Source: Undibacterium sp. YM2 (lineage in GTDB: Bacteria; Pseudomonadota; Gammaproteobacteria; Burkholderiales; Burkholderiaceae_D). Taken from it: a stretch of 64,000 bases of DNA. The position numbers and the translations under genes were made by a program. The notes beneath the pieces were generated by a model that was not told the DNA's origin, searched no databases, and saw only the letters and a program-made list of their open reading frames with translations. The stretch spans positions 186,001 to 250,000 of the forward strand of contig NZ_AP018441.1 in assembly GCF_009937975.1 (NCBI RefSeq). Reading direction: 5' to 3'. Of this stretch, positions 721-5,553 are shown piece by piece; position 1 is the first letter of the stretch; the number at the start of each line of letters is the position of its first letter.

Positions 721-873
721 ATGCAACCCCCGCGGGCATCCCCATTCAATGGGGGCTTCGCAGTACTTAAGCTTCCTTCAAGAGATGATGCCATCGTTCT
801 GGCCGCACGTCTCGCCAAAGCTTGTCGCAGTGAGCAGGAGCTTAAGGTATTTGGTTTTGAACCAGAATCTTGA
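721..873 (+). pseudogene. Fragment of a YCII/DGPF-like domain protein
   Basis: A 50-codon open frame reads 'GGFAVLKLPSRDDAIVLAAR' then 'LAKACRSEQELKVFGFEPES' and stops. This resembles the C-terminal half of YCII-related (DGPF) domain proteins, where a Gly-Gly-Phe strand is followed by a 'S.DEA..WA.R' helix and a final strand. The N-terminal half is missing, and no good ribosome binding site precedes the ATG at 721. I read it as a remnant at the edge of the AT-rich island. The family match is by eye only. Confidence 0.35.
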
Positions 874-1283
874 TGCCAAAGTATTTCTGTATATTCTGCT
901 AGTTTATGATTCGGAAGAAATTAGGATAATTTGAACTTGCTGCTCGCACATGGATGTATCAGAATGATCAAAATTTAGTAAATAATTATTTGACGATTGT
1001 GCTAACGTGAATAATGACAAGTTGCTCAGATAAAATGAATTGAGAATTCTTTTCAACGTTTTACCGAGAGTTATATTACGGTTGTTAGTACAAGATGTAA
1101 ATCAAAGTAAACTTCTTCCATTGCATTTGGTATTTTTGTTATAGTTAAAATGTTACGAAAATTTTTATAGAATTTAATCTCGCCACGCAGCGTTGGTAAG
1201 CGTGACCTCATTAATCCATGGCGCACGTGGCGGGAATATAGTTTCGGCACGCTGGCAATTCAGCCGCTGACATAATTAATCTG
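874..1283. other. AT-rich intergenic stretch upstream of the toxin-antitoxin pair
   Basis: No convincing gene. From about 930 the composition turns markedly AT-rich compared with the flanking LysR gene, which fits the left edge of an acquired island. The promoter of the toxin-antitoxin operon must lie here, but I could not pick one -35/-10 pair with confidence. No tRNA or clear attachment-site repeat was found. Confidence 0.4.
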
Positions 1284-1619
1284 ATGCCTATACAATTGGC
1301 GTTTCAAGACGAAAATCTTCGAAAAGTTTGCGAGAGTACTGTTTCGGCAAAACGCAAATACGGTGGACTCGCTGGACCATCGCTTCATGCTCGCCTTGCG
1401 GACTTGAAAGCGGCCGATTCACCATCGGACCTCGTTGATTGGGGTTTAGCAAAATTTGACCAAGCGTCTGATAGCCAGATAATTATTTTTATTGATGATG
1501 AATACCATGTTCGCGCTGCTGCTAATCATAATCCCCCTCCTGGTACTCCAGGAAAGTTGGACTGGAAACAGGTAACGCGAGTAAAGATATTATCTATTGA
1601 GCGTGCCAATGAGAACTGA
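1284..1619 (+). CDS. RelE/HigB-like toxin of a type II toxin-antitoxin system
   Basis: This small 111-residue protein matches the pattern of RelE/ParE-superfamily 'killer' toxins of the HigB type. An N-terminal helix-rich part ('DENLRKVCES...AKRKYG...LHARLADLKAA') is followed by C-terminal strands including 'YHVRAAANHNPPP' and a closing 'LDWKQVTRVKILSIE'. Family members are usually ribosome-dependent mRNA interferases; that activity is inferred, not visible. The stop overlaps the ATG of the next gene by 11 nt, so toxin and antitoxin are translationally coupled, toxin first as in higBA. No strong Shine-Dalgarno sequence precedes the ATG, suggesting low independent translation of the toxin. Confidence 0.8.
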   Translation: MPIQLAFQDENLRKVCESTVSAKRKYGGLAGPSLHARLADLKAADSPSDLVDWGLAKFDQASDSQIIIFIDDEYHVRAAANHNPPPGTPGKLDWKQVTRVKILSIERANEN

Positions 1620-2721
1620 AATTGATTTTGCGCCCATGTGGGCTGTTCCGCCGGGTCGAACCATTTGTGATTTGATGAAATCAAGGGGGATTGCTTCGAC
1701 TAAATTGGCAAATTTGGTTAGCATGACTGAGGCTGAATTCGATAATCTCTTGTCTGGAAAGAGCGCTCTTACTGCTTATGTTGCTACTCATCTAGAGACT
1801 AATCTCGGAGCATCAGCCAATTTTTGGTTGCGTCGCGAAGAGCAGTACCGAAAGCAATTGACTGAGTTGAATGAGGGGGTTGATCCAGAAAAAGAAGAAT
1901 ATAAGTCTTGGTTAAAAAGTCTCCCTCTGAAAGAAATGCAAAGCCTTGGATTGATTGAGTCGACCAGAGATCAGAAAGAAAAACTTCGTGGATGCCTTAG
2001 TTTTTTTGATGTACCTAATCTCGATGCATGGTATAGGACTTATGTAGACGTTAGAGCAGCGACCGCGTTTCGAACAACTGATGCCTACCTTGAAAATGTT
2101 CCAGCTACGTCCACGTGGCTCAGACTCGGTGAGTTGCAAGCTGCGAAGATTGAATGCCAGAACTGGAGTCCTGAGCGATTTAAAGCGCAATTGACAAAAA
2201 TACGCAGTTTGACAAAAATAGCTGCTCCATCAGAGTTTCTTCCAAAGCTCCAAAATTATTGCGCAGAAGTCGGTGTTGCTGTTGTTGTAATAAAAGCGCC
2301 GACTGGATGTAGAGCTAGTGGAGCGACTTTCTTTGCTAATCCGAATAAGGCCGTATTGCTGCTGAGCTTCCGCTATTTAAGCGATGACCAATTCTGGTTT
2401 TCTTTCTTTCATGAAGCGGCTCATCTAATATTGCATTGGGATGCTGATTTACTGATTCTTGAAACATCTGACGGCCCCAAGTCTCCTAGAGAGGAAGAGG
2501 CTAATGCATTTGCCTCTGAGCAACTAATACCTCATGGATTTCAAACTCGAATGCGGGAGGCGGCTAAGACTTTGAAAGGCATCATGAGACTTGCACAAGA
2601 TGCAGGAGTATCTTATGGGATCGTAGTGGGGCAAATGCAGTTTCGTGGATTTGTTAGGCGCGATCGCTTTAACCGTTTAAAAACTCGGTACAAGTGGGAC
2701 CAGCTAACCGCGAAAAGCTAA
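1609..2721 (+). CDS. HigA-like antitoxin fused to an ImmA/IrrE zinc metalloprotease
   Basis: The 370-residue protein starts with a HigA/Xre-type helix-turn-helix (about residues 15-75, 'PGRTICDLMKSRGIASTKLA' and 'LETNLGASANFWLRREEQYR'). It ends with an ImmA/IrrE metallopeptidase domain carrying HEAAH at 268-272 and a downstream acidic 'EEEANAFASEQLIP' stretch that should give the third zinc ligand. I chose ATG 1609 over the upstream TTG at 1597 because it gives the usual small overlap with the toxin. The likely role is DNA-binding antitoxin and operon autorepressor; the protease may cleave a repressor or the antitoxin part itself on a signal, by analogy with ImmA/IrrE. The 3' end overlaps the convergent gene by 18 bp. 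Confidence 0.8.
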   Translation: MRTEIDFAPMWAVPPGRTICDLMKSRGIASTKLANLVSMTEAEFDNLLSGKSALTAYVATHLETNLGASANFWLRREEQYRKQLTELNEGVDPEKEEYKSWLKSLPLKEMQSLGLIESTRDQKEKLRGCLSFFDVPNLDAWYRTYVDVRAATAFRTTDAYLENVPATSTWLRLGELQAAKIECQNWSPERFKAQLTKIRSLTKIAAPSEFLPKLQNYCAEVGVAVVVIKAPTGCRASGATFFANPNKAVLLLSFRYLSDDQFWFSFFHEAAHLILHWDADLLILETSDGPKSPREEEANAFASEQLIPHGFQTRMREAAKTLKGIMRLAQDAGVSYGIVVGQMQFRGFVRRDRFNRLKTRYKWDQLTAKS

Positions 2722-3630
2722 ATATTTTTTCGGGCTCTTCTGCCAATTGCAGAGGGAGTCTTCTATTACCTGCATCCCTACCCCCAAAGTTTTATCGAGT
2801 TGTACGGAGAGCTCATCTAGAGCCTTTTTTGAAAGTGATTTATTGTCTACCGCTCCGCAGAAAAGTAGGCGTGCGCCGCGCACTGGTCCAGTCCCATCCT
2901 TCATGTACGCTGATGGAGGTTCTAAGTTGACTAAGCCAATTTTTGCCACCATAGTTAGGAAGTCAAATTTACCAGTTCTTCCAAATCGATGTACGGCATT
3001 CATGTCCCTATACAAGTAGTCGAATAGTTTCTTAGGATCAGTTCCAACTTTTGCCTGAGCTCTATCTATGAGGTCTTTGTGTGACCGAGTCGGACCTACC
3101 CAGTCAGCATAGCTTTTAAGAATGACATCCAATTTGCCCAGACTTTCATATTTGCGATGGTTTCCAAACGGGAAACTCGCTCGCTGCTTTTTTATGTTAT
3201 CAAGATGTTGATGGAGCCACATAGAGAAGTCATTGGGATTTTTCGAAAATCTATCCCACGTCCAAACAAACTGGTCATTGAACGCACCATATACCATTCT
3301 CAGCAAACCATATCCTTTCGTAAGATGTTTCCCGCAATGTACGAAAAGGAAGATCAACCAAAAGGCTTCATCCTCATTACCTGAACGCATATAATGGACT
3401 GCTGCCCGAAGTGGGTCGAACATTACGGCATCTTTAGGGTTTATGCGGCTTAGTGAAACTTCCCGCGTTGAAATAGTTTTCACGTATTTGATCCGCGCAA
3501 CACTGTCTATCATTTGACTTACAAGGGCAGTGAGTTCTTCTTGGGATGGGATGCCTGGTAACGGTTTCCCGTTAACTCGATAGTCTGTGAGTTGCTGCTC
3601 AAGTTGTGCTGCGAGTTTTGGATTTTTCAT
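2704..3630 (-). CDS. Alpha-glutamyl/putrescinyl thymine pyrophosphorylase-like protein (clade 3)
   Basis: This 308-residue protein resembles the aGPT-PPlase clade 3 family, a branch of the helix-hairpin-helix DNA-glycosylase fold predicted to attach amino acids or polyamines to activated hydroxymethyl-pyrimidines in DNA. The diagnostic stretch is in the second half: 'KSYADWVGPTRSHKDLIDR', then 'FGRTGKFDFLTMVAKIGL', then 'PPSAYMKDGTGPVRGARLLF'. It lies 24 nt downstream of the thymidylate-synthase-family gene on the same strand, a pairing that fits a base-modification pathway. The N-terminal 100 residues are helical with no motif I recognise. Family assignment is from memory of the motif. Catalysis by a bacterial clade 3 member has not, to my knowledge, been shown. 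Confidence 0.65.
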   Translation of the reverse strand: MKNPKLAAQLEQQLTDYRVNGKPLPGIPSQEELTALVSQMIDSVARIKYVKTISTREVSLSRINPKDAVMFDPLRAAVHYMRSGNEDEAFWLIFLFVHCGKHLTKGYGLLRMVYGAFNDQFVWTWDRFSKNPNDFSMWLHQHLDNIKKQRASFPFGNHRKYESLGKLDVILKSYADWVGPTRSHKDLIDRAQAKVGTDPKKLFDYLYRDMNAVHRFGRTGKFDFLTMVAKIGLVNLEPPSAYMKDGTGPVRGARLLFCGAVDNKSLSKKALDELSVQLDKTLGVGMQVIEDSLCNWQKSPKKYLAFRG

Positions 3631-3654
3631 ATCGCTTAATATATTTGGGAATAC

Positions 3655-4722
3655 TTACCGGATATTTTCTTCGTTATCGCCCGCGGGCTGTTGGGCATCA
3701 AGTTCCTCGACATCGAAGAGCATGGGTTCTGTCGGTTGTACAGCTTTTGGAATTCGGCGTTGACGTTTTAAAATATGAGCGTCATAAAAAGTAGAACTCA
3801 TTTTCTTTTTGATTTCGTTAATATTCTTTCTCTGTTCACCCTTGGCTGAATCTCGAGAATATCGGAACACCTCAAGCAGTCGTACAAAGTCGCCCCAGTA
3901 TGGGTCTAGGTCAGCAAAAGAAGGCTGTTTTCCCTGTCGAATTGTTCGCTCTGCCTTCAAAAGATTTTTGACAGATGGCCATGGGTCACCAAGCGGCATT
4001 GGTGGCATTGGAACTCGCTCCTGCACACCTTCCTCAAGATAATCCTGCATTGCTTTCGTATGTTCGGTGTAAAGATGAAGACTACCAACAGCATGCTTGT
4101 AAGGACCGACTTCAACACCCAATGAGCGTGCAATGAGTTCCTGCAACATCGTGAACGCAAAGACATCATGCGGCAGTCCCAAAAACGCGTCATTCGACCG
4201 CATCATGACCATTGCATGGAGCTGATGGTTGCGAATTGTGAATTGTAGCGTACAGGTACACGGAAGGTCCTCGCGTCGGCTTTCAAGGTTGTCAGCTAAA
4301 TCCTCTCCGCGGAAAAGTTGAATAACGGCCCTTCGCGATGTATTGCTCGCTTTTAGAGTTTTGATGACATTCTGAACTTGGTTAATTGCTCCGTTTAGAT
4401 CGAATAGGCGAGGACCGTATGCTCCATAAATGGTCTTCCCATCATCAGAATACTTGCCATAGTCACGTATGTAGTATTGGATGAAACTCACTTTATCCGA
4501 GCCTGAAAGATACCACAGGAATTCTCCTAAGCAACTGAACAAGGTACTCTTCCGTTCAGTTCGGCTTATACGGGCTCGTGGATTTTTAATTTGAAGCAGT
4601 GCCCCATTAATCTCTGTTGCAGGTCCTTTCGTAGGCGTAATATCAGATGAGCCACGCTTTCGCAGCAAGCGCCGATAAACTTTTATGAGTAAGTCATCAA
4701 GGGTTTCTGCGCTCAGATACAT
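3655..4722 (-). CDS. Thymidylate-synthase-family enzyme, possibly a (d)CMP hydroxymethylase
   Basis: The 355-residue protein aligns well with ThyA. The catalytic Cys is C155 (in 'LPCTCTLQF'), followed by the conserved R-S-x-D-x-F-L-G at 175-182 and 'HLY' at 216-218, with paired Arg 130/131 for phosphate binding. The decisive oddity is 'GLPHD' at 182-186. ThyA has 'GLPFN', and its Asn (177 in E. coli) selects uracil; here it is Asp186. In T4 dCMP hydroxymethylase an Asp takes that place and shifts specificity to cytosine. The enzyme may therefore hydroxymethylate or methylate a cytosine nucleotide rather than dUMP. A C-terminal tail of about 60 residues is unlike ThyA. Second gene of the minus-strand cassette. 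Confidence 0.8.
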   Translation of the reverse strand: MYLSAETLDDLLIKVYRRLLRKRGSSDITPTKGPATEINGALLQIKNPRARISRTERKSTLFSCLGEFLWYLSGSDKVSFIQYYIRDYGKYSDDGKTIYGAYGPRLFDLNGAINQVQNVIKTLKASNTSRRAVIQLFRGEDLADNLESRREDLPCTCTLQFTIRNHQLHAMVMMRSNDAFLGLPHDVFAFTMLQELIARSLGVEVGPYKHAVGSLHLYTEHTKAMQDYLEEGVQERVPMPPMPLGDPWPSVKNLLKAERTIRQGKQPSFADLDPYWGDFVRLLEVFRYSRDSAKGEQRKNINEIKKKMSSTFYDAHILKRQRRIPKAVQPTEPMLFDVEELDAQQPAGDNEENIR

Positions 4723-4796
4723 AACGGAAATAGTAAGTCTAATGGGGCATTTAGCTGATGGAGCCGCGAAATCTGATGAAGTGGAATAGTCAAAAA

Positions 4797-5099
4797 TTAC
4801 TCAAACAGTCGTAACTGCGGTTCTGCTCTATTAAGTGACGCGATAAGCTCAAGTTTTAGTTGTCGGCCGCGCGAAATGAGTGTGCGTCGGTCAGCTGGCA
4901 TTGCACCCCGACTCAATGCCACAATTCGAACTTCGACAGTAACGTCGTAATGGGGTAGTGAGGCATGTGCCTGAAACCAAGCGCGCTTCAACCCTAAAGA
5001 TTTTGCAAACAGATGCAGTTCATCGAGCGAGTCGGCGACTAAATGGCACCATTGGCGTCCTTGCCAGGCTATCCGAACATTATCCACATATACAGCCAA
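4797..5099 (-). CDS. DUF4031 domain protein
   Basis: A 100-residue protein with the DUF4031 pattern: N-terminal 'MAVYVDNVRIAWQGRQWCHL', then 'ADSLDELHLFAKSLGLKRAW' and 'HYDVTVEVRIVALSRGA'. Its function is not established; small DUF4031 proteins are common in phages and actinobacteria. The start is a TTG at 5097-5099, chosen because GAGGT lies 8 nt upstream and the 'MAVYVDN' motif begins there. It is the first gene of the cassette, 74 nt ahead of the thymidylate-synthase-like gene, so it probably shares its transcript. The promoter should lie in the AT-rich block at 5110-5200. Confidence 0.75.
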   Translation of the reverse strand: MAVYVDNVRIAWQGRQWCHLVADSLDELHLFAKSLGLKRAWFQAHASLPHYDVTVEVRIVALSRGAMPADRRTLISRGRQLKLELIASLNRAEPQLRLFE

Positions 5100-5553
5100 A
5101 ATTATTACCTCATAAAGTTAATTTATTCTATATTAATATTGCTAATTAAAATAGCATTAATACTAATCTGTTGGGTCTTAAGAACAGATTGGCGATTCTC
5201 ATAATTTACATATCAAAATTGGCAAAAAAATTAGGCGCAGTTCTCCTCACGCTGCATGCAATAAAGATTTATGGGGGCTCAAATTATAATTGGTGAAAGT
5301 AAGAGTTGGTATGAATATGCTCGTCTCTGATTTTCTATGAAGCGATTTTGCGTTGTAATTTGATTTGTCACAGTATCGCAGAAGCAAAATGGCAGTGTAG
5401 GGGTGAGCGTGCATACGACATCTACTCCCGTTTGCTCAAAGAACGTGGCCAACCGGTTATATTTAAGACAAATCAACAAGCTCCACCTGCCCACCCCAGA
5501 AAAGACGGATAATACCGCCTACACGTTTTCGTACACTATTCTGGAACTCCCCC
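5100..5553. other. Intergenic region between island and ycaO-like gene
   Basis: The first 130 bases are very AT-rich and probably hold the minus-strand promoter of the DUF4031 cassette. The rest has no intact gene but contains a short clpP-derived segment at 5399-5446. The composition moves toward that of the host chromosome before 5554, so the right boundary of the island probably falls here. Confidence 0.5.
5399..5446 (+). pseudogene. Scrap of clpP (N-terminal region)
   Basis: Sixteen consecutive codons read [16 protein letters not shown], which is the conserved segment near the N-terminus of the ClpP protease ('[20 protein letters not shown]...'). The frame continues for about 24 codons without further ClpP similarity to a stop, and nothing ClpP-like precedes it. 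There is no start codon or ribosome binding site. It must be a gene fragment left by recombination; a functional peptide is unlikely. Confidence 0.6.

Follow-up and report, generated by a model that had tools for sequence, protein, structure and literature searches.

Base hypermodification has been known chiefly from phages, which use it as a weapon, and T4-like phages carry hydroxymethylcytosine. In the hypermodification of phage thymidine (M6/PaMx11/ViI type), an enzyme of the thymidylate synthase (TS) family is paired with a protein of the aGPT family, and the accessible part of PMC9599517 presents TS-family enzymes and aGPT clade 1 proteins as partners in phages. The same pairing of families occurs in the bacterium Undibacterium sp. 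YM2, within a stretch of 64,000 nucleotides (nt) of its genome (contig NZ_AP018441.1, positions 186,001 to 250,000; hereafter the window), where a conserved mobile cassette probably joins hydroxymethylation of deoxycytidine monophosphate (dCMP) and side-chain transfer to a HigB-like toxin and a helix-turn-helix (HTH) protein of the ImmA/IrrE type. In contrast to the phage pathways, the cassette is bacterial, its aGPT protein belongs to clade 3, its TS-family enzyme appears to be of the cytosine type, no kinase belongs to the unit, and a toxin–antitoxin (TA) arm is a fixed part of it.

Several other described systems invite comparison with this cassette. The CMP and dCMP 5-hydroxymethylases MilA and T4 gp42 share with the cassette enzyme an Asp at the cytosine site, a T4-like Ser at the deoxyribose site and an Asp or Glu ahead of the catalytic Cys, whereas the cassette enzyme has Gly for a signature Ser and lies outside an antibiotic cluster or lytic phage. 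Type II HigBA systems share the gene order, with the toxin first, the HTH antitoxin second and the two genes overlapping, but the antitoxin of the cassette differs in having an ImmA/IrrE protease domain and a fixed link to modification genes. PD-Lambda-2, which to our knowledge has no modification genes, possesses a B component that the cassette ImmA protein matches. As far as the available text of PMC12948488 describes it, Kongming may resemble the cassette in coupling a non-canonical deoxynucleotide to a killer arm, an analogy of logic only. Finally, the sections of the DefensePredictor study at hand (PMC13092281) place aGPT-Pplase among predicted, unvalidated defence domains and thymidylate synthase among newly validated ones; an aGPT-Pplase system bearing the same domain name appears in Fig. 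6F, the legend of which also expands HTH and UDG, and the study may thereby cover the present cassette.

Layout and conservation of the cassette

Two operons face each other in the window. On the plus strand, the gene for a 111-amino-acid (aa) HigB-like toxin of the RelE/HigB type (1284–1619) overlaps by 11 nt the gene for a 370-aa HTH-ImmA/IrrE protein (1609–2721), a HigA-like antitoxin with an intact HEAAH protease motif. These converge on minus-strand genes encoding an aGPT-Pplase of clade 3 (2704–3630, 308 aa), a TS-family enzyme (3655–4722, 355 aa) and a DUF4031 protein (4797–5099, 100 aa, TTG start), the aGPT and ImmA genes overlapping tail to tail by 18 nt (2704–2721). An earlier sequence-only reading had described the last three as successive minus-strand open reading frames (ORFs) with gaps of 24 nt (aGPT/TS) and 74 nt (TS/DUF4031); positions, strand and gaps are confirmed, and its family assignments (aGPT-Pplase3, Thymidylat_synt and DUF4031) are all borne out by Pfam.

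A search with the aGPT protein against genome contigs of 84,980 species yielded 114 relatives; the top 80 of these define the 80 loci considered here, with gene presence scored by profiles grown from the window proteins. ImmA was found in all 80, the toxin in 79 (not L052), TS in 78 and DUF4031 in 25, while all four core genes (toxin, ImmA, aGPT and TS) occur together in 77; because the loci were sampled via aGPT, these counts are uninformative on how often the other cassette genes occur alone. The TS gene was not found at L046 and L058, and the contig of the latter starts just before aGPT. The aGPT and ImmA genes lie on opposite strands at every locus, with their ends no more than 30 nt apart in 74, and the overlap of aGPT with the preceding stop is exactly 4 nt in 33 of 77 loci. 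By record titles, the loci belong to Pseudomonadota (60), Actinomycetota (7), Bacteroidota (5), Acidobacteriota (3), Chloroflexota (3), Planctomycetota (1) and Verrucomicrobiota (1). Besides the named genes, no neighbour within 6 kb recurs in more than 10 of the 80 loci. The three-gene unit that had been proposed from aGPT, TS and DUF4031 is rejected in that form: its TS–aGPT pair holds in 78 of 80 loci, so that a lack of conserved co-occurrence, named in the earlier reading as its refutation, does not apply to these two, but DUF4031 is its least conserved and an optional part, and the TA genes, which the earlier reading had placed merely alongside, belong to the unit.

An independent sample spread evenly over the phylum, 398 genomes including that of Undibacterium sp. 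YM2 itself, contained four with a match to the aGPT Pfam model, and the full module is present in two of the three others (L083, L085). A large protein set contributed 2,858 aGPT relatives among 4,483 candidates. Furthermore, pairwise distances of the four core proteins correlate at 0.71–0.84 across 70 loci, with none of 500 permutations reaching the observed value, although part of this correlation could come from common descent of the hosts.

Mobile elements also carry the module. Matches to aGPT occur in 8 of 72,556 plasmid records and at 26 IMG/VR viral-contig loci, of which 25 have ImmA, 25 TS and 23 the toxin; these loci are not independent, as some run off the end of their contig and others nearly duplicate one another (L154/L155; L162/L163 share one contig). 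The contig shared by L162 and L163, of 118,644 nt, holds the module twice, in its first and last part, perhaps through a repeat or an effect of assembly. A Leptospira interrogans plasmid (L217:4207-8380) carries TS, UDG-fold, aGPT, ImmA and toxin genes; its annotation lists a thymidylate synthase, hypothetical proteins, an ImmA/IrrE protein and a further hypothetical protein, and the aGPT match spans two annotated pieces. Such carriage, together with the use of TS plus aGPT clade 1 by some phages (according to the portion of PMC9599517 seen), would suit a counter-defence role, in which the cassette modifies the DNA of the phage or mobile element that carries it and the TA pair serves as addiction. 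Nevertheless, the aGPT protein has no match among 50,697 phage records, the window cassette lies beside LysR and YcaO genes (Pfam) and no tRNA was found within the window, and we regard counter-defence as very unlikely. For want of a match in those phage records, a lytic-phage remnant was rejected as first choice, and the earlier suggestion that the genes were left by a phage is weak, the IMG/VR loci notwithstanding.

The modification enzymes

The TS-family enzyme matches Thymidylat_synt (PF00303, E 4.8e-30), yet its closest solved chains are CMP 5-hydroxymethylases (5b6d, E 2e-50), with the best thymidylate synthase at only 3.5e-19; it also misses every curated NCBIfam TS cut-off. As given in the part of PMC5175136 available, Asp186 reads cytosine, Ala176 and Lys133 go with ribose, and Ser/Arg with deoxyribose. 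Among 81 cassette TS rows, 78 of them readable at the key sites, the cytosine-site Asp and the deoxyribose-site Ser that mark a dCMP 5-hydroxymethylase are present in 78 of 78, as is each of the catalytic Cys, Glu, His and Tyr; the Lys133 site holds Arg in 70, Lys in seven and a gap in four, and the ribose-type residues of MilA are absent. A true second thymidylate synthase, forming dTMP, was rejected both for this kinship, far closer to CMP 5-hydroxymethylase than to TS, and because all 78 readable rows have Asp and not Asn (E. coli N177) at the uracil-reading site. The genome (6.66 Mb, two contigs) has a separate TS gene, 26% identical to the cassette enzyme over residues 54–230.

Whether this enzyme hydroxymethylates is addressed by two further positions. 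An acidic residue (Asp or Glu) at the third position ahead of the catalytic Cys, a mark of hydroxymethylation in the accessible text of PMC6400193, is found in nearly all rows (D 47, E 26, S 4 and P 1 of 78), the window having D. At the companion position, which lies two residues ahead of the active-site Tyr, the signature Ser is replaced by Gly in 69 of 78 rows, the window included (S 6, E 3), and for this reason the enzyme is termed dCMP 5-hydroxymethylase-like and not a full member. Judged by its residues, it is most likely a hydroxymethylating enzyme of this kind, and it may instead act as a methylase. The earlier idea of a base-modification pathway is thus upheld in that two modification-type enzymes travel together, but not in its thymine chemistry, because the TS residues indicate a cytosine deoxynucleotide, which had been missed.

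The aGPT protein spans profile positions 2–279 of 279 in aGPT-Pplase3 (PF18746, E 8.7e-92), with 307.9 bits against a gathering cut-off of 25, and also matches ADDT, 'Amino acid:DNA transferase' (PF18724, E 5.2e-68); its predicted fold is closest to the PaMx11 glycinyltransferase. It is probably a transferase acting on the 5-substituent of a modified pyrimidine. A different route would make it an HhH-like N-glycosidase, comparable to DUF2419/Qng1 acting on queuosine monophosphate, so that TS and aGPT together yield free 5-hydroxymethylcytosine, in the manner of MilA and MilB in the mildiomycin pathway. This free-base or nucleoside route is quite improbable, given that the best aGPT match and both Pfam families are side-chain transferases and that the MilA ribose-type residues are missing.

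Two accessory proteins may bear on the same chemistry. DUF4031 (PF13223, E 2.2e-25) is also found in T4-like phages (some of 314 phage records; L216:7788-8054) and may be linked to modified cytosine. An extra gene in 24 of the 80 relatives, not in the window, encodes a protein whose predicted fold places it in the UDG superfamily; 3,096 relatives of this family were found, and none of the 120 listed has a Pfam domain.

The toxin–antitoxin arm and the insertion site

The TA pair noted earlier beside the enzymes is real. Single-sequence searches with the toxin gave no family match, but a profile of its family (50 members) matched a HigB-like profile (27 members) at 95% probability, three control profiles remaining at or below 1.1%; with an earlier, uncleaned HigB set the match was 77%. 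The partner protein has an ImmA/IrrE domain (PF06114, E 7.7e-13), and all 77 relatives above 300 aa in length keep HExxH. A HigB-like toxin thus adjoins an HTH antitoxin, as in HigBA, the HTH resting on a match to antidote_HigA (E 1.2e-6) that is below the model cut-off. The best defence match of the ImmA protein is the B component of PD-Lambda-2 (PADLOC PD-Lambda-2_B, PDLC03982, E 4e-27); no other component of that system was matched by the window proteins (E 0.1) or by 50 toxin relatives (E 1), with model sensitivity uncertain.

Of the 398 phylum genomes, 22 contain ImmA homologues (E ≤ 1e-12); aGPT matches are lacking in 19 of the 22, and wider stretches were fetched around 15 of these 19. 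An unrooted tree of 93 rows places the cassette ImmA proteins, 78 with the window included, on one side of a branch supported at 100/99 and the 15 aGPT-free ones on the other. Taken with the correlated distances of the four core proteins, this single clade suggests that the pairing is old and has been kept as a unit.

Neighbours of the aGPT-free relatives, examined with Pfam at three of the 15 loci and by eye at the others, suggest that the TA pair has been put to use in more than one kind of defence locus. Relatives of the HigB/HTH-ImmA pair stand with N6_Mtase and Methylase_S (HsdM/HsdS, type I restriction-modification) at L206:5249-11110, with an OLD-like TOPRIM at L210:4751-8384, and with T5orf172/MUG113 (GIY-YIG type) and a DEAD match below the cut-off at L203:6394-11112. 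The adjacency to type I restriction-modification genes recalls a toxin-based analogue of such systems, in which host DNA would be hypermodified at some cytosines and the toxin would punish loss of the mark. The union of modification and killer within one conserved unit and the ADDT match of the aGPT protein are in keeping with this self-marking scheme, but the TS family works on free nucleotides, nothing in the unit picks DNA sites and no nuclease belongs to it, which leaves the scheme doubtful.

Another aspect concerns the site of insertion. The approximate island (861–5495) is delimited by blastn and by a GC content lower than that of its flanks: the nearest same-genus genome, whose YcaO is 96% identical in protein and 90% in DNA, lacks it at the same site, similarity to the window stopping at 860 (73% over 200 nt, about 3 kb from YcaO) and restarting at 5496. 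The AT-rich island described before is modestly so, with GC of 0.446–0.454 in the cassette genes and 0.35–0.37 at the island edges against 0.51–0.52 outside. In that relative, three different AT-rich genes (39–43% GC, no Pfam domain) occupy the same site before YcaO (L117:3311-5351), and in four further same-genus stretches (7.4–7.7 kb) matching is limited to the YcaO region. The cassette is accordingly missing from the site in five of five same-genus relatives, a comparison of the site only and not of whole genomes, and the YcaO site looks like a hot spot where cargo varies.

Among the 143 direct neighbours of the 80 cassettes, the Pfam families shown (25 of 121) include phage integrase (5), Methylase_S (3) and Mrr_cat (3), and the PADLOC families shown (25 of 279) include type I specificity (3). 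Five loci (L016:5628-6395; L023, L032, L033, L074) have an Mrr-type restriction endonuclease cluster close to the cassette, with Mrr_cat confirmed in L016. At eight loci (L068:10360-11049; L056, L061, L070, L071, L075, L079, L081), a product of about 137 aa is encoded upstream of the toxin and appears MazG-like by eye; the one long ORF of this group that was scanned gave no Pfam match.

A possible conflict system

Defence is the most economical role for the cassette, and the defence role proposed earlier is plausible. Our preferred explanation, held tentatively and somewhat short of probable, is a horizontally moving bacterial conflict cassette, probably anti-phage, whose two convergent operons couple modification to toxin release. 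The TS-family enzyme would convert dCMP and methylene-folate to 5-hydroxymethyl-dCMP; the aGPT-Pplase3 protein would then alter the hydroxymethylated cytosine at position 5, either within the nucleotide pool or on DNA, an amino acid or an amine being the likeliest addition. Where present, the UDG-fold enzyme probably removes or reads a modified base, and DUF4031 would be an accessory. The HTH-ImmA/IrrE protein would restrain the HigB toxin as long as the modified-cytosine state is intact; a disturbance of that state, such as phage replication might cause, would lead the protease domain of this protein to release the toxin, whereupon infected cells would stop translating. What the data show directly is the linkage of the genes, the single clade of the cassette ImmA proteins, the residue signatures and the predicted folds; the reaction products, the source of any activating kinase, the coupling of modification to the toxin and the protection from phages are what we infer.

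Several observations weigh against this explanation. Besides the Gly at the signature Ser of the TS-family enzyme, the fold match of the aGPT protein is middling for a helical protein, and no shared operator was found. The third other aGPT-bearing genome of the phylum, with a divergent protein (E 9.8e-59), lacks TS and TA genes over 3.8 kb (L086) and ImmA over 12 kb (L214). Several of the 15 aGPT-free ImmA loci show no defence partner by eye, and defence genes are not clearly abundant among the cassette neighbours: none of the PADLOC families shown matches more than three of the 143, a figure without a background control.

A kinase of the phage pathway was also not seen among the neighbours recurring within 6 kb at the 80 loci, no search having been aimed at a 5hmdU kinase. 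A unit that makes a deoxynucleotide and has no kinase of its own might instead set a trap or send a message: hydroxymethyl-dCMP or its amino derivative would be bait for phage nucleotide kinases, whose triphosphate product would inhibit or signal, by a logic like that of Kongming (dITP), which employs phage dNMP kinases in this way (PMC12948488, in the passages available). As neither the ImmA protein nor the toxin has an identified nucleotide-binding receptor domain and the case is one of analogy only, such a trap is distinctly unlikely. A bolder proposal, rather speculative and on balance unlikely, is that amino-decorated hydroxymethyl-dCMP is the currency of a bacterial immune system, its level or place being shifted by the nucleotide enzymes or the DNA synthesis of a phage, a change that the ImmA protease would read before freeing HigB.

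If the conflict-cassette explanation is true, it would represent a new coupling of nucleotide or DNA chemistry to cell suicide, in a conserved bacterial unit spanning at least seven phyla. The cassette also provides a setting for the UDG-fold protein family. Moreover, it suggests that genes labelled 'thymidylate synthase' in such settings, such as that of the Leptospira plasmid, annotated for dTMP synthesis, probably encode cytosine hydroxymethylases.

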